Of a stretch of 64,000 nucleotides of DNA, positions 9,082-47,328 are shown piece by piece. The notes beneath the pieces were generated by a model. It had not been told where the DNA came from and ran no database searches. It worked only from the letters and a program-made list of their open reading frames with translations. The position numbers and the translations under genes were made by a program. This DNA is from Gammaproteobacteria bacterium (GTDB lineage: Bacteria; Pseudomonadota; Gammaproteobacteria; Thiohalomonadales; Thiohalomonadaceae): contig QKED01000044.1 in the NCBI GenBank assembly GCA_003252455.1, forward strand, positions 1-64,000, in the 5' to 3' direction. The number at the start of each line of letters is the position of its first letter. Position 1 is the stretch's first letter.

Positions 9082-9513
9082 ATGCGTCACACAGCCCCCT
9101 TGCTCGCCCTCTGGCTCGGGCTCGCCGCCCTGCCACTGAGGGCCGATGTCATCGACATGCCGATGCCCTACGATGCGCCCGCCGCCCCCTATCAAGGGGT
9201 CTCCCCGGAGGAGTTACTCAAGCGCCCGCGCGTGGAACTCTCCCTGCCGGTGCGCGGTATGAGCATGGAGCAGGTCGAGGCAAAGTATGGGCGGGCCCTG
9301 GAGGTGGTGCCAGCGGTTGGGCGGCCCCCCATCACGCGCTGGGTATACGACGATTTCACCGTCTACTTCGAGTACCTTTATGTGATCCGCTCGGTGGAGA
9401 AACAACGCCCCATGCAGCGCCCAGAGCTGCCACCATTACCGGCCACCCTACCCGAGGCCGCCCCCGCGTTGAGCACGGAGGGGGAGAGCGTGGCGCCCGG
9501 CCTGTATGAGTAA
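9082..9513 (+). CDS. Small exported protein with SmpA-like G-M-S-x-x-x-V motif, upstream of aguA
   Basis: 143 aa with a signal peptide (hydrophobic 6-20, cleavage near LRA-D). The core PVRGMSMEQVEAKYG, then PPITRWVYDDFTVYFEY and a Pro-rich tail, resembles small periplasmic proteins with a SmpA/OmlA-like fold. The GMSMEQV segment corresponds to the G-M-x-x-x-x-V turn of that fold. I do not know a function. Its stop overlaps the aguA start by 8 bp, so the two are probably co-translated although aguA is cytoplasmic. Confidence 0.8.
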   Translation: MRHTAPLLALWLGLAALPLRADVIDMPMPYDAPAAPYQGVSPEELLKRPRVELSLPVRGMSMEQVEAKYGRALEVVPAVGRPPITRWVYDDFTVYFEYLYVIRSVEKQRPMQRPELPPLPATLPEAAPALSTEGESVAPGLYE

Positions 9514-10552
9514 GGCCGTGTGGCTCCCCGCCGAGTGGTACCCGCAGAGCGGCGTCATGCTCACCTGGCCCCGCCCCGGCGGGGATTGGGCCCCCTGGCT
9601 CGATCAGGTCGACCCGGTGTTCGTCGCTATCGCCCGTGAGGTGACCCAGTGTGAAGCGCTGCTCGTCAGCGCCTACGACGAGGCCCATCGGGCGCATATC
9701 CTTGGACTGCTGCAGGCCGAGGGGGTCGATCTGGCCCGCGTCGACCTGCGCATCATGCCTTCGGACGACTCTTGGGCGCGCGACCATGGCCCGATTACCG
9801 TCCTCGACCACGGGAGCCCGCGCCTACTCGACTTTGGTTTCAATGGTTGGGGCAACAAGTTCAGCGCCGAGCTGGACAACACCCTGAGCCGACGCCTGCA
9901 GAGTGCCGGGGCCTTTGGTGCCTGTCCGCTACAGACCCTCGACCTGATCCTCGAAGGGGGCAGTATCGAGAGCGATGGTCAGGGGACCCTGCTCACCACC
10001 CAGGAGTGTCTGCTCTCCCCCGAGCGTAATCCGCAATTCGAACTCGTCGAGATCGAGGCGCAGCTCCGACAGCTGTTCGGCGTCGAGCGGGTACTCTGGC
10101 TCACGGAGGGGGCCCTGGAGGGGGACGACACCGATGGCCACATCGACACCCTAGCACGCTTCTGCGACCCACACACCATCGCCCATGTGGTGTGCGACGA
10201 CCCGAGCGACCCGCACCACGCCCCGTTGCAGGCGATGCGCGCGCAGCTGCGTGCCATGCGCGACTATCAGGGCAATCCCTATCGCTTGATAGAGCTTCCG
10301 CTACCCGCACCTATCCACAGCGCCGAGGGGCAGCGCCTGCCCGCCACCTACGCCAACTTCCTCATCATCAATGGGGCCGTGTTGCTGCCGACCTATCGCG
10401 ACCCACTCGATGCCCTCGCTGTAGAGCGCCTGCAGGCGGTCTTCCCCGCGCATCGGGTGGTGGCCATCGACTGTCGACCGCTGGTCGAACAGTACGGCAG
10501 CCTGCACTGCGTCACCATGCAACTGCCCCAGGGCGTCCTCCCCCACAACTGA
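9506..10552 (+). CDS. aguA: Agmatine deiminase
   Basis: A 348-aa peptidyl-arginine-deiminase-fold enzyme converting agmatine to N-carbamoylputrescine plus ammonia. Visible motifs: MLTWPRPGGDW near the N-terminus, PSDDSWARDHGP, DFGFNGWGNK, LEGGSIESDGQGT, and DDTDGHIDTLARF with the catalytic His. The nucleophilic Cys335 sits in YGSLHCVTMQ close to the C-terminus. aguB, 13 bp downstream, completes the two-step route to putrescine. Confidence 0.96.
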   Translation: MSKAVWLPAEWYPQSGVMLTWPRPGGDWAPWLDQVDPVFVAIAREVTQCEALLVSAYDEAHRAHILGLLQAEGVDLARVDLRIMPSDDSWARDHGPITVLDHGSPRLLDFGFNGWGNKFSAELDNTLSRRLQSAGAFGACPLQTLDLILEGGSIESDGQGTLLTTQECLLSPERNPQFELVEIEAQLRQLFGVERVLWLTEGALEGDDTDGHIDTLARFCDPHTIAHVVCDDPSDPHHAPLQAMRAQLRAMRDYQGNPYRLIELPLPAPIHSAEGQRLPATYANFLIINGAVLLPTYRDPLDALAVERLQAVFPAHRVVAIDCRPLVEQYGSLHCVTMQLPQGVLPHN

Positions 10553-10565
10553 CAGAAGTGCCAAC

Positions 10566-11456
10566 ATGCCCGCCTCAAAACTCGTGGTCGCGCTGATCCA
10601 GCACGCCTGCTGCGACGACAATCTCACCAACCTCTCCGTCACCGAACTGAACATCCGCGAGGCGGCCTCGCGTGGGGCACAACTGGTGCTTCTACAGGAG
10701 CTGCACACGTCGCTGTACTTCTGCCAGACCGAAGATACCACCCTGTTCGACCTGGCCGAGCCCATCCCGGGCCCCTCCTGCGAGATCCTCGGCCACCTCG
10801 CCGCAGAGTTGGGCGTGGTGATCGTCAGCTCACTGTTCGAGCGCCGTGCCGCGGGGCTCTACCACAACACCGCCGTGGTCTTCGAGAAAGACGGCCGCAT
10901 CGCCGGCACCTACCGTAAGATGCACATCCCCGACGACCCTGGCTACTACGAGAAGTTTTACTTTACCCCGGGCGACCTCGGCTTCACCCCTATCGATACC
11001 TCGGTTGGGCGCCTTGGTGTGCTGGTCTGCTGGGATCAGTGGTTTCCCGAGGCGGCACGCCTGATGGCCCTGGCCGGTGCCGAGTTGCTGCTCTACCCGA
11101 CCGCCATTGGCTGGGACCCGCAGGACACCCCAGAAGAGCAGGCGCGCCAGCTTGAGGCCTGGGTCACCGTCCAGCGGGGGCACGCAGTGGCCAATGGTCT
11201 ACCCGTACTCGCCTGTAATCGCATCGGCTTCGAGCCCGACCCGAGCGGCCAGGGGGCGGGCAGCCAGTTTTGGGGGAATAGCTTCATCGCCGGGCCTCAG
11301 GGGGAGTTCCTCGCCCGAGCCCCCGCTGATCGCGCCTGCGTCATCGTCTACGAGCTGGACATGGCCCGCAGTGAGTCGGTCCGCCGCATCTGGCCCTACC
11401 TACGCGACCGTCGCATCGATGCGTACGACGACCTCCTCAAGCGCTTCCGCGATTAG
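10566..11456 (+). CDS. aguB: N-carbamoylputrescine amidase
   Basis: A 296-aa nitrilase-superfamily amidohydrolase releasing putrescine from N-carbamoylputrescine. The Glu-Lys-Cys triad is visible: E45 (LLQELH), K118 (TYRKMHIPDDPGY) and C155 (VCWDQWFPEAAR). The PDDPGYYEKFYFTPGD segment is typical of AguB. The stop at 11456 is directly followed by the TGACA/TGTCA half-site array of the downstream regulatory region. Confidence 0.96.
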   Translation: MPASKLVVALIQHACCDDNLTNLSVTELNIREAASRGAQLVLLQELHTSLYFCQTEDTTLFDLAEPIPGPSCEILGHLAAELGVVIVSSLFERRAAGLYHNTAVVFEKDGRIAGTYRKMHIPDDPGYYEKFYFTPGDLGFTPIDTSVGRLGVLVCWDQWFPEAARLMALAGAELLLYPTAIGWDPQDTPEEQARQLEAWVTVQRGHAVANGLPVLACNRIGFEPDPSGQGAGSQFWGNSFIAGPQGEFLARAPADRACVIVYELDMARSESVRRIWPYLRDRRIDAYDDLLKRFRD

Positions 11457-11573
11457 TGACACTGAGTGTCAGCCTGTCACGCCATATGTCATGACACGGG
11501 CTGACAGTTCGTTTCTTAAATCACCATATTCCCTACGATTTATATTCTTATATTTCGTATGACATACTGTCAT
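11457..11573. promoter_or_regulatory. TGTCA/TGACA half-site array, probable enhancer (UAS) of sigma-54 promoter 1
   Basis: Several copies of the pentamer TGTCA and its complement TGACA are packed here. TGACA-N5-TGTCA is at 11457-11471, TGTCA at 11475-11479, the perfect palindrome TGTCATGACA at 11487-11496, and TGACA at 11502-11506. ATGACATACTGTCAT, a perfect inverted repeat, is at 11559-11573. The array lies about 90-205 bp upstream of the predicted start at ~11664, the usual distance for an enhancer-binding protein. The inferred binder is the adjacent activator (12155-13597), whose own upstream region has the same pentamers. Confidence 0.6.
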
Positions 11574-11637: not shown

Positions 11638-11653
11638 TGGCACGGAACTCGCA
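11638..11653 (+). promoter_or_regulatory. Sigma-54 (-24/-12) promoter 1, driving the sRNA-like unit
   Basis: TGGCAC (11638-11643), five bases, TCGCA (11649-11653). The -24 GG and -12 GC are exactly 12 bp apart as required. The -24 box is perfect and the -12 box differs from TTGCA by one base. The predicted start is about 11664. No ORF with a ribosome-binding site follows. Instead a structured segment ends in a strong intrinsic terminator at 11760. Confidence 0.72.
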
Positions 11654-11663
11654 CTTATGTAGA

Positions 11664-11760
11664 CAGGAGCGTACCTGGACCGATGTCCGGTACATTTCCT
11701 CCTCGTTCTACTCTGTGGTGTTTCACCGCGTACGACCTCGGTCCTACGCGGTTTTTTTTT
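11664..11760 (+). ncRNA. Predicted sigma-54-dependent small RNA (~97 nt)
   Basis: Bounded by the -24/-12 promoter and an intrinsic terminator. Hairpin 1: GTACC (11671-11675), bulged T, GGAC (11677-11680), loop CGAT, GTCC and GGTAC (11685-11693). A predicted single-stranded pyrimidine-rich linker (about 11694-11723) contains CCTCCTCG at 11698-11705, an anti-Shine-Dalgarno sequence. The terminator hairpin and nine T residues close the unit. This architecture (sigma-54 promoter, 5' hairpin, unpaired anti-SD, terminator, ~100 nt) is that of trans-acting Hfq-type sRNAs such as Qrr. I do not recognise the family. It is predicted from DNA only. Confidence 0.7.
11725..11760 (+). terminator. Intrinsic terminator of the predicted sRNA
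   Basis: ACCGCGTA (11725-11732) pairs perfectly with TACGCGGT (11745-11752), with an inner GAC/GTC, followed by nine T residues ending at 11760. No coding gene ends nearby on this strand: aguB stops 270 bp earlier, and sigma-54 promoter 1 lies in between. The terminator therefore belongs to the promoter-1 transcript. Confidence 0.85.
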
Positions 11761-11763
11761 GCC

Positions 11764-11902
11764 TGTCACTTTTAGGTCTGCCATCACGCGATGCCGCCCT
11801 CTCAGGTCACATATGACACACGACCTGACATGGAACTGTCATCTGCAAGGTTAAATCTGACATTAACTGACACGCAAGATTGCTGTCGGCTGCACACTGT
11901 CA
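11764..11902. promoter_or_regulatory. Second TGTCA/TGACA array, probable enhancer of sigma-54 promoter 2
   Basis: TGTCA at 11764, 11837 and 11898; TGACA at 11814, 11826, 11858 and 11868, with near-matches between. The cluster from 11814 lies about 145-233 bp before the predicted start at ~12047, mirroring the layout of the first array. The same activator is the inferred binder. Confidence 0.55.
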
Positions 11903-12020: not shown

Positions 12021-12036
12021 TGGCACACTCACTGCA
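12021..12036 (+). promoter_or_regulatory. Sigma-54 (-24/-12) promoter 2
   Basis: TGGCAC (12021-12026), five bases, CTGCA (12032-12036). GG and GC are 12 bp apart. The -24 box is perfect and the -12 has one change from TTGCA. The predicted start is near 12047. Reading rightward, the transcript would carry a strong hairpin, GCGCCG (12101-12106) plus TCAT pairing with ATGA plus CGGCGC (12123-12132). It would then run antisense into the 3' end of the activator gene. No U-tract terminator is visible, so the product is unresolved. Confidence 0.65.
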
Positions 12037-12154: not shown

Positions 12155-13597
12155 TTACTCCTGCCCCAGCTCATCGCCCTTCAGGCGCTGGATATAGCGA
12201 TAGAGCGTCCGTTCACTCACCCCGAGCACCTCTGCCGCGTGTGCACCATGGCCTTGTATGCGGCGTAGTGCCTCCATTACATCGCCCTCGTTGAGGCGAC
12301 CGCGGCGTCGGCTCAGGAGCTGGGCGCCCAGGCCATGTGCACTGTAGGGGGACTCGTCAACGGCCTCGTCGAGGTCCGGCAGCCACTCGCTGCGTGCCTC
12401 TTCCCGCGCGCTATCCACCGTGCGCGCGGCCTCGAAGACGATGTGATCCGGCCCCAGTGCATCCTCATAGGCGAGGATGTTGGCGCGTTCGAGGATGTTG
12501 CGCAGCTCACGTACGTTACCCGGGTAGTCGTAGTCGAGCAGGCGTTCGACCACCACACTGGAGAGCGGCAGGTGCCGCCCTCCCTCCTCGAAGCGACCGA
12601 TGAAGTGTTCGGCCAGTAGAGTCACATCCTCCAGGCGCTCGCGCAGGGGCGGGATGCGGATGGGGAATGCAGAGAGACGGTAGTAGAGGTCCTGTCGGAA
12701 CTCGCCACGCTCGACCATCTGCTGCAGGTTCTTGTTGGTGGCGGCGATGATGCGCACATCCACGTCGATGTAGTGGGTGCCGCCGATACGGCGGATGGTG
12801 CCCGACTCCAGTACACGCAGCAGCTTGGTCTGCAGTGGTAGGGGCAACTCGGCCAGCTCGTCGATGAACAAGGTCCCCTGGTGGGCGATCTCGAACAGCC
12901 CCTTCTTGCGCCCGGTGGCGCCGGTGAAGGCACCTTTTTCGTGGCCGAACAGCTCGCTCTCGATGAGGGTCTCGCCCAGGGTGCCACAGTCGACGATGAC
13001 CAACTCACGGTCGGCGCGCGCCGAGGGCTGGTGCAGATAGCTGGCGACGCACTCCTTCCCCACCCCGCTCTCACCGAGCAGTAGGACACTGGTCTGGGTC
13101 GGTGCCACACGCTGGAGCAGACTGATCATGCGCAACATGGCCGGGGAACGACCGACCAGGCGCGTGCCGTTTTCATAGGAGGAGTGCACCGGGCGGATGC
13201 TCTCACCCACGTAGAGCACGTCGCCGGCACTGTCGAACAGCGGTGTGGACTGCAGTTCGACATGCTCCTCACCGCCCTCGCGGTCATAGTGGATGTGCAA
13301 TACCTGGATCGCCTGGGCGCTGTCGAACACCTGCTCCAGCGGGCAGTGTTCGCCGTGTTCGCTACATGGGGAGTCGACGTGGTGAGAGACCTTGTAGCAG
13401 TACTGGCCGACCACCTGATCGGTGTCCTGCATCCCGTAGTGCGAGAGGTAATTCTGATTGGCCGCGACGATACGATAGTCACGGTCGATGACTACAAAGG
13501 GGTCAGGGAAGATATCGATGATCTGCTGACAGGAGGGAGAGGTCGCCTGAGGCCCCGCCGTGGGCGGATTACGGTCAGATTTTGGCGGTTTTGTCAT
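12155..13597 (-). CDS. Sigma-54-dependent activator with cysteine-rich PAS-like sensor (FisR-like)
   Basis: A 480-aa enhancer-binding protein. The N-terminal PAS-like domain (about 23-140) has three cysteines, C67, C78 and C85, in a Cys-x10-Cys-x6-Cys pattern with His residues around them. The AAA+ domain has Walker A GESGVGKE (175-182), the sigma-54 contact loop GAFTGA (222-227), [12 protein letters not shown] and the R-finger region. A Fis-type HTH ends the protein ([19 protein letters not shown]). As I recall, the sulfane-sulfur sensor FisR of Cupriavidus uses C53, C64 and C71, the same spacing. No receiver domain, so ligand or thiol sensing is expected. AGGAG precedes the ATG. sqr lies upstream on the same strand. 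Confidence 0.9.
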
Positions 13598-13657
13598 GAC
13601 AGGCTCCTGGTTGGATGGAGCCGACTATATGACAATTTATGACATTAGGCCAGTACT

Positions 13658-13707
13658 ACCTGTCAAAGACCTGACACGACGGGGTGTCGCTGTCAGGTCT
13701 GACAGGT
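13658..13707. repeat. 50-bp inverted repeat of TGTCA elements between sqr and the activator gene
   Basis: Left arm 13658-13676 (ACCTGTCA, two extra A, GACCTGACA) is complementary to 13691-13707. An inner CGAC/GTCG (13677-13680 with 13686-13689) closes the centre. It lies 10 bp after the sqr stop and about 60 bp before the activator ATG. Two further TGACA copies follow at 13630 and 13640. As DNA it offers paired half-sites like those at 11457-11902. As RNA it would form a long stem without a U-tract. On the minus strand a TTGACA -35-like box (13666-13661) overlaps it, compatible with autoregulation. Confidence 0.65.
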
Positions 13708-13717
13708 ATGGGAAGGC

Positions 13718-14992
13718 TTACTTCAGCTTCTGGATGCCGAGGGCCTTGAGCAGGTACTTCTCGTACAGCGGGTCGTTGGAGCCCTTCTTCATCTTATTGA
13801 TGAAGTACTTCTCGAAGGCGATCTTGGCCATGTGTACCCACTTGCCCTTCTTCATCCAGGAGACGTTGCGGGGCGGGATCTGCGGCATGGCGACAAAGGC
13901 GACGCCGGTATCACCCATATCGGCCAGACAGATGGCGTGCCAGGTGCCCTTCTGGTCGGGGGCCTTGCCCTCGATGACGTTCTTGATGTTGTGCACGGCG
14001 GCCAGCACCATGGACTCGATCATGTAGCCGGTCTTCGGCGTGCCGGTGGCGACCGGGGTGGCCTCGACCGGGGGGATGGCGATACCCACACCCACGGAGT
14101 AGATGTTGGGCCACTTGGGGTTGTGCTGGTACTCGTTGACCTTGACGAAACCACGCGGATTGCACAGGTCGTCACCCACGGCGGCCACCGCGTCCACGCC
14201 CTTGAAGGCGGGCAGCATCATCGAGAACTTGAAGTCGAGCACGTGTGATTTGATCACATTGCCCTGCATATCGTGCTCATCGACGTACATCTTGCCGTCT
14301 TCCACCTTGGTGGTCTTGGCATTGGTGATGAACTTGATGTGGCGCTGACGCAGCTCGGACTCCAGCATCCCCTTGGAGTCACCCACGCCACCGAGGCCCA
14401 GGTGGCCGATGTAGGGCTCGGAGGTGACGAAGGTCATGGGTACCTTATCGCGGATCTTACGCTGACGCAGGTCGGTCTCCATGATGAAGGCGAATTCGTA
14501 GGCAGGGCCAAAGCAGGAGGCGCCCTGCACGGCACCGACTACGATGGGACCCGGGTTGGCCACGAACTCCTGCCACTGCTCATAGGCCTTCTCGGCATGG
14601 CCAACGGTGCAGACGGAGTTGGTGAAGCCCTTCTCCGGACCGGTGCCCTCGACCTCTTCGAAGGCCAGCTTGGGGCCGGTGGCGATGATCAGGTAGTCGT
14701 AGGCGACCACGTCACCATCGGCCAGGATCAGCTGGTTGATGTTGGGGCGGATCTCGGTAACGGTCTTGGTGATGAGGTTGATGCCCTTCTTCTTCAGGTA
14801 GGGCTCCAGGGGGAAGGAGATATCGGCGCGCGAGCGCCAACCCACGGCCACCCACGGGTTCGAGGGGACGAAGCTGAACTCCTCGTAGGTGTTGATCACG
14901 GTCACTTCGTGCTCACGACCGAGCACGGCACGGGCATCGTACGCGGCGGGCAGACCGCCGGTGCTGGCTCCAATTACAACGACATGCGCCAT
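13718..14992 (-). CDS. sqr: Sulfide:quinone oxidoreductase
   Basis: A 424-aa FAD disulfide oxidoreductase that oxidises sulfide to sulfane sulfur and passes electrons to quinone at the membrane. The start chosen is the ATG at 14992, with AAGGAG 9 nt upstream; the frame opens earlier. The FAD site is GASTGG (8-13); VPSNPWVAVGW (42-52) is a typical SQR block. Cysteines C128, C160 and C355 correspond to the redox trio known from SQRs such as A. ferrooxidans (128, 160, 356). The C-terminus (about 376-424) is basic/amphipathic, as for membrane attachment. The type within the SQR family is not settled here. The activator gene lies downstream on the same strand. Confidence 0.93.
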   Translation of the reverse strand: MAHVVVIGASTGGLPAAYDARAVLGREHEVTVINTYEEFSFVPSNPWVAVGWRSRADISFPLEPYLKKKGINLITKTVTEIRPNINQLILADGDVVAYDYLIIATGPKLAFEEVEGTGPEKGFTNSVCTVGHAEKAYEQWQEFVANPGPIVVGAVQGASCFGPAYEFAFIMETDLRQRKIRDKVPMTFVTSEPYIGHLGLGGVGDSKGMLESELRQRHIKFITNAKTTKVEDGKMYVDEHDMQGNVIKSHVLDFKFSMMLPAFKGVDAVAAVGDDLCNPRGFVKVNEYQHNPKWPNIYSVGVGIAIPPVEATPVATGTPKTGYMIESMVLAAVHNIKNVIEGKAPDQKGTWHAICLADMGDTGVAFVAMPQIPPRNVSWMKKGKWVHMAKIAFEKYFINKMKKGSNDPLYEKYLLKALGIQKLK

Positions 14993-15079: not shown

Positions 15080-15095
15080 AGCACAAAGCGTGCCT
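15080..15095 (-). promoter_or_regulatory. Candidate sigma-54 promoter for sqr
   Basis: On the minus strand AGGCACG (15095-15089), four bases and GTGCT (15084-15080) place GG and GC 12 bp apart. The GGCACG core is perfect; the T before GG and one T of the -12 box are missing. The predicted start is ~15069, giving a ~77-nt leader to the sqr ATG. No dense half-site array is seen 100-200 bp upstream, where the small membrane-protein gene lies. Confidence 0.4.
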
Positions 15096-46763: not shown

Positions 46764-47016
46764 GCGAACCTCCTCGGCGGCCTCTGTGTAGTGATGCGCT
46801 GAAGATACGTGCTCCGTGCCGAACTGCCAAGCGTCACACCAGACCCGCCCTACAGCGCAAGGCGCAACCGCTATACGCCTTGCGCCCCTCGCCTCTGACA
46901 AAGCGCTACGGCAGGTGGCCTCAGCAGACGTAGGGCGTGCGACAAAGGCATGCCGGGCCTCGACCTTATGGCCGATTCCCAGGCGCTGGCGAGTCGGCTA
47001 TCATGCGCCCCCTTGG

Positions 47017-47209
47017 AGAGCATGGTGTCCCCCTGGCGCGTCGCCCGGGGGATGAAACGGGAAGCCGGTCGGTCTATGGACCCCAATCCGGCGCTGCCCC
47101 CGCAACGGTAGATGAGTCGTACCGCGCACGACGCCACTGTGTCAGCCGACATGGGAAGGCGCGCGGTCGGAGGCCACACCTCCCCTCATGAGCCCGGAGA
47201 CCGGCCTGC
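47017..47209 (+). ncRNA. Cobalamin riboswitch
   Basis: The leader before btuB has the conserved elements in order: GATGAAACGGGAAGCCGGT (47051-47069), GCTGCCCCCGCAACGGTA (47093-47110), and the B12 box AGCCCGGAGACCGGCC (47191-47206). Adenosylcobalamin or related corrinoid binding would shut off the btuB-cob operon. A perfect 9-bp hairpin (47208-47216 with 47227-47235) sits at the 3' edge of the aptamer without a U-tract, which suggests control of translation or Rho access. btuB begins 120 bp downstream. Confidence 0.93.
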
Positions 47210-47328
47210 CCTCCGCCACTGGCACTGCGGAGGGCGGTGTCCGGCCGTGCATCGCCCTGCCCGCGCCCCGTCCTCCCTGTGTCGCCCACTCCCTTCCGCA
47301 ACGTGCGGGTGTGCACAAAGGAATATCC

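Follow-up and report, generated by a model that had tools for sequence, protein, structure and literature searches.

A predicted sigma-54-dependent small RNA of a new family beside a FisR-type regulator in Thiohalomonadaceae

The window analysed here, a 64,000-nucleotide stretch of one contig from a gammaproteobacterium of the Thiohalomonadaceae, carries a short candidate RNA gene at 11664–11760 (plus strand) close to genes with predicted roles in sulfide oxidation. Agmatine-pathway genes (9506–11456) lie upstream of this unit. On its other side, a gene for a FisR-type sigma-54 activator occupies 12155–13597 on the minus strand, its product displaying the PAS, AAA+ and Fis HTH architecture (Pfam domains PAS_4, Sigma54_activat and HTH_8). 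An sqr-like flavoprotein gene (sulfide:quinone oxidoreductase) is found at 13718–14992, also on the minus strand with its ATG at 14992, and was identified by the Pfam Pyr_redox_2 domain, the NCBIfam SQR match being weak and below cut-off. In one relative (G006; L131, 6392–7758), two rhodanese-domain genes are situated between the RNA and fisR. Elsewhere in the window there is a cobalamin riboswitch (RF00174, 87.3 bits) at 47005–47223 on the plus strand, which is the only Rfam match passing its cut-off in the whole window.

A sequence-only reading of this DNA had proposed that a -24/-12 promoter at 11638–11653 drives a non-coding RNA of ~97 nt. The promoter element, TGGCACGGAACTCGCA, is present on the plus strand with GG-N10-GC spacing and a single departure from the consensus TGGCACGNNNNTTGCW. 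Approximately two sites of such a score are expected per 64 kb by chance, based on shuffled sequence, so that the consensus match alone is not beyond chance; it is the conservation of the element, at the same register in all 11 members of the family described below, that makes the promoter significant. The predicted transcript was defined by minimum-energy folding and by a covariance model match, with its 5′ end placed from the promoter. Its minimum free energy is -35.1 kcal/mol (z = -3.9), with none of 200 shuffled sequences being as stable, which bears out the unit and its bulged 5′ hairpin as first described. This hairpin, P1 (11671–11693, with arms at 11671–11680 and 11685–11693), has 9 bp and one bulged U, and its pairing is kept across lineages. 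It is followed by a C/U-rich core (11694–11724), the most conserved part across members, comprising an anti-Shine-Dalgarno (anti-SD) CCUCC within CCTCCTCG at 11698–11705, a mini-hairpin CUAC-UCU-GUGG at 11708–11718, and then UGUUU. The anti-SD segment had been described as unpaired; it is indeed present, but it is partly paired in the minimum-energy fold, where its CUCCU is bound by a 5′ AGGAG, and such an alternative pairing of the 5′ end (AGGAG/GUGGAG) with the core is possible in every one of the 11 members. The intrinsic terminator (11725–11760) has the eight outer base pairs and nine T already noted, along with three inner pairs, and the first T is paired within the stem. It was identified from the fold and the covariation of its outer stem; a terminator scanner made no call here owing to the interior loop in the stem.

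To identify relatives of this RNA, covariance models were used. Five relatives belonging to one other genus carry, on the 3′ side of their fisR orthologue, a ~100-nt unit that has the core GGAUUCCCCUCCUUCCACACUGUGGUGUUUU and is accompanied by a sigma-54 promoter. A first model was constructed from three of these relatives, with the promoter columns and the window sequence left out, and this gave the window copy 29.5 bits (E = 3.3e-6), the sole true match in its own genome. Among 20 genomes of the order, all of one family, the same model identified five further copies in other genera, all of which carry a TGGCAY-N5-NTGC promoter ~26 nt upstream despite having been found by the RNA model alone. 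This brings the RNA family to 11 of the 20 genomes, with the -24/-12 element lying 22–28 nt (mostly 26 nt) ahead of the RNA in each member and with downstream genes that differ among the genomes, some of them being convergent. An 11-sequence model (R2) scores the members at 48–96 bits, against less than 34 bits for everything else in the taxonomic family. A search of 369 genomes of the class with model R1 gave no close member; its matches outside the family were only plain terminators that lack a sigma-54 promoter, so that the close family does not extend across the class. Nor did a combined promoter and TGTGGTG pattern reveal any new member in 32 genomes, almost all of which encode a FisR-type relative. 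The covariance search suggested by the sequence-only reading has accordingly recovered a family that recurs near fisR, with compensatory changes and with both stems and promoter conserved. Judged on these comparisons, the locus encodes a genuine RNA, which is conserved and belongs to a new family.

The window FisR possesses three cysteines arranged as C67-x10-C78-x6-C85, a motif found in all orthologues of the family, the comparator for this spacing being Cupriavidus FisR. FisR is known as a sigma-54 activator of the sulfide oxidation genes sqr and pdo (PMC7315123), and its three conserved cysteines sense reactive sulfur (PMC9774590). A candidate upstream activating sequence for FisR was found at 11457–11572, where eight TGACA/TGTCA (TGWCA) half-sites lie upstream of the RNA promoter. 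There are 57 TGWCA sites in the 64 kb, and they form clusters only here, at 11764–11902 and at 13592–13705. The last of these is upstream of fisR, as is the case for most fisR orthologues across the class, and suggests that fisR is probably autoregulated. The cluster at 11764–11902 stands ahead of a second sigma-54-like site, TGGCACACTCACTGCA (12021–12036, plus strand), which points at the 3′ end of fisR and might give rise to an RNA antisense to it; neither a terminator nor an RNA of the FisR-linked family was found downstream of this site. Repeats of the TGWCA or TGNCA type precede the RNA in all 11 members (G017 and G019 have two exact TGWCA sites only, the remainder being TGNCA variants), and do so even where fisR is on a different contig (G001, G009 and G005). 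Of the 12 genomes that have a close FisR orthologue, 11 were found to contain the RNA (G015 being the exception), vs. none of the eight lacking one, with a Fisher p of 7e-5 that overstates independence because these genomes share ancestry. The sRNA beside a FisR-type regulator that had been predicted is supported by these data, and the shared repeats and co-occurrence strengthen the connection, such that the sequence evidence points to a strong link between the sRNA and FisR.

It could be argued that, while the sRNA is genuine and does depend on sigma-54, the protein acting on the TGWCA repeats is a FisR-like paralogue or another enhancer-binding protein. Such a paralogue, 47% identical and with its cysteines spaced alike, is encoded in the window genome (L024), and several relatives have one as well. 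We consider this unlikely, as it is directly upstream of the window-type fisR orthologue that the TGWCA clusters occur throughout the class, and it is the window-type FisR that the sRNA tracks, with G010, G012 and G016 having only a paralogue-level relative and no sRNA.

Other genes appear to be under the same control. A sigma-54-like promoter, AGGCACGCTTTGTGCT (15080–15095, minus strand), lies 103 bp ahead of the ATG of sqr, and sigma-54 promoters were also found 78–109 bp before sqr in G007, G014, G017, G018, G019 and G001, as well as before a probable sqr in G005. This resembles the FisR regulons of Cupriavidus and Acinetobacter, which likewise combine a FisR-type activator carrying the three-cysteine motif with a sigma-54 promoter for sqr. 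The literature searched yielded no description of an sRNA among the targets of FisR. A strict search of 369 genomes for TGWCA repeats combined with a sigma-54 promoter gave only eight entries from six genomes, among them the sqr promoter of G258 (a member of another family), the G007 sRNA, multihaem cytochrome genes and an RNA unit of G053. The multihaem genes encode many CxxCH motifs (a NapC/NirT-like protein and a larger multihaem protein) and have TGWCA repeats and sigma-54 promoters ahead of them at L266 (G005) and L270 (G007:C1:2400476); these are probable further FisR targets. The unit in G053, which is also from another family (L215/L264, G053:C1:3344455-3344556, minus strand), consists of a TGWCA cluster, a sigma-54 promoter TGGCGCGCTGATTGCT, a structured RNA of ~125 nt and a terminator. 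It has little sequence similarity to the FisR-linked sRNA family, with CUCCUCC located within its terminator hairpin, and is a candidate for a diverged FisR-driven RNA.

No Rfam family, including Qrr, CrcZ and GlmY/GlmZ, was matched at the gathering cut-off at the sRNA locus, where there were weak sub-threshold matches only. The closest resemblance is to RF02278 (bdhR1, a toxic small RNA of Betaproteobacteria) and to S17 of Bordetella, which share with the FisR-linked sRNA a C/U-rich anti-SD core, a small hairpin ending in GGUG, a U-rich stretch and a strong terminator. These RNAs differ in having housekeeping-sigma promoters (S17 then being processed by RNase E), whereas the window family is sigma-54-driven with enhancer repeats. 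As the window sRNA scores 19.2 bits and its relatives 25–26 bits against RF02278, short of the cut-off of 50, the family was not placed within RF02278. S17 depends on Hfq and exerts its repression at ribosome-binding sites, one target being an mRNA for a sigma-54 activator (PMC11722255), and its overexpression reportedly did not inhibit the growth of E. coli in the conditions used there (PMC11722255). From its sequence features, the FisR-linked family is most readily understood as a branch or analogue of the RF02278/S17 anti-SD type under sigma-54/FisR control, and this kinship with C/U-rich anti-SD sRNAs of a known class is a point to be added to the first reading.

The 11-member model also matches a second sRNA, in which a stem is followed by GACUCCUCCAUCCUCCUUUGGUGGUUUU and then by a terminator. 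These matches lie in genomes of other families that bear FisR and in a subset of those of the same family. This second type has sigma-70-like promoters and is found in many genomes of the class, scoring 33–44 bits against RF02278 (cut-off 50), for which reason RF02278 seems to reach beyond the Betaproteobacteria. The window genome itself carries one such C/U-rich anti-SD sRNA of RF02278 type (L218, G000:C26:34681-34788, minus strand), with a stem, GGACTCCTCCATCCTCCTTTGGTGGATTTT and a terminator, which is sigma-70-driven.

Among sigma-54-dependent regulatory RNAs, the Qrr sRNAs of Vibrio are short, activated by the enhancer-binding protein LuxO and equipped with an Hfq-type terminator. The window sRNA is alike in being short and sigma-54-dependent, with an enhancer-binding activator and an Hfq-type terminator, but differs in its sequence, its activator (FisR, not LuxO), its presumed signal and its single copy. 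Qrr and GlmY/GlmZ had been named as the known sigma-54 cases, which is correct as far as it goes but leaves out CrcZ/CrcY and NrsZ of the Pseudomonadaceae, sigma-54-dependent regulatory RNAs that are similarly tied to a metabolic sensor (CbrB and NtrC).

The computation supports the RNA gene, its structure, its sigma-54 promoter and the link to FisR. With regard to function, the probable reading, and the one we favor, is that of a FisR-activated, Hfq-dependent trans-acting sRNA of a new family which pairs with ribosome-binding sites. That the sRNA responds to sulfur is something we infer from FisR. Sulfide or persulfide stress would activate the neighboring FisR through its three conserved cysteines, and active FisR would then bind the upstream TGWCA repeats and drive sigma-54 polymerase at 11638–11653, yielding an RNA of ~97 nt that ends at the intrinsic terminator. 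For the steps that follow, we infer Hfq binding, an anti-SD mode of action and the targets: the U-rich stretch and terminator tail would suit Hfq, and the C/U-rich core (CCUCC, then UUCUACUCUGUGGUG) would pair with the Shine-Dalgarno regions of target mRNAs and lower their translation, with the 5′ AGGAG/GUGGAG folding back on the core and possibly gating it. An hfq gene is present in the window genome and in all sRNA-bearing genomes, and the sRNA has the U-rich stretch ahead of a U-tailed terminator that typifies Hfq-type sequences.

Potential targets were sought in five genomes using the complement of the sRNA core. The clearest site common to the ribosome-binding regions of orthologous genes was found in two species ahead of the gene for an OMPP1/FadL/TodX porin, with 15–17 contiguous pairs including one G-U. 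This site is weak in other species, genomes that lack the sRNA contain a similar GGGGAAT too, and the window genome has no orthologue of the FadL-type porin, making the porin a weak lead only. Two species also have a weaker candidate site, of 14 of 17 bases, ahead of a gene for an M23-type peptidase. The start sites of fisR and sqr ranked 43 and 41 of 45 by duplex energy on a crude scale, which lends no support to their pairing with the sRNA.

Alternatively, the RNA could act by sequestering a protein, either Hfq or a CsrA-like one, much as CrcZ or CsrB does, without pairing to mRNA. There is precedent for this in CrcZ, which is sigma-54-dependent and sequesters Hfq (PMC4063720), and many members have GGA at their 5′ end. 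However, CrcZ titrates Hfq by way of A-rich repeats that are absent from the window sRNA, and neither it nor CrcY or NrsZ matches this sRNA in sequence. The unit is short and without repeated binding motifs, its most conserved part is the C/U-rich anti-SD core, and pairing with mRNAs is how its closest known counterparts act, making sequestration quite improbable next to the trans-acting, mRNA-pairing sRNA.

Compensatory change also speaks for a function at the RNA level. Across the 11 aligned sequences, both partners have changed in 19 of 23 pairs, 95.2% of cells are paired and the covariation score is 0.59, compared with 0.19 for shuffled alignments and at most 0.11 for slid structures, counts and scores that are somewhat flattering given that the alignment was fitted to the model. 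All 10 alignment pairs of P1 have both-side changes with 95.6% of cells paired, its sequence differing in nearly every lineage and yet still pairing, and both-side changes are likewise seen in all nine pairs of the outer terminator stem. The mini-hairpin, CCAC-ACU-GUGG across the family, is nearly invariant and so provides little evidence for its own pairing.

A coding function for the unit is unlikely from its sequence. That it encodes a small protein is suggested by a frame through the core (...PPSTLWCF...) which is open in most members and within which the changes in the window are synonymous; nevertheless, we regard this as highly improbable, given that the frame is shifted in G013 and without a start codon in G001, that its start positions vary with no ribosome-binding site, and that the changes in the stems are compensatory at the RNA level. 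The lengths of the stems vary among members by non-multiples of three. In the window, the longest start-to-stop frame inside the sRNA (ATG at 11684) stops past the terminator, in agreement with the earlier observation that no open reading frame fits. Equally hard to credit is that the unit is a leader or readthrough terminator with a chance promoter match, which the background frequency of such promoter sites would allow, since promoter, spacing, RNA and terminator are kept together in 11 genomes with differing, partly convergent, downstream genes.

Only a few sigma-54-driven sRNAs are known, and none tied to sulfide or persulfide sensing was found in the literature searched. The FisR-linked sRNA would offer a concrete case of an RF02278/S17-type anti-SD sRNA put under a specific stress sensor, and the proposed FisR operator of TGWCA repeats would make the whole regulon searchable. 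More tentatively, it is possible that persulfide sensing through FisR commonly has an RNA arm, in which many FisR-bearing sulfur oxidisers would possess a FisR/sigma-54-driven anti-SD sRNA, diverged past sequence recognition, that retunes translation when sulfide appears; the G053 unit would be an example of this. If the conserved RNA is indeed controlled by FisR, the reactive-sulfur homeostasis of sulfur-oxidising bacteria would gain a post-transcriptional arm.
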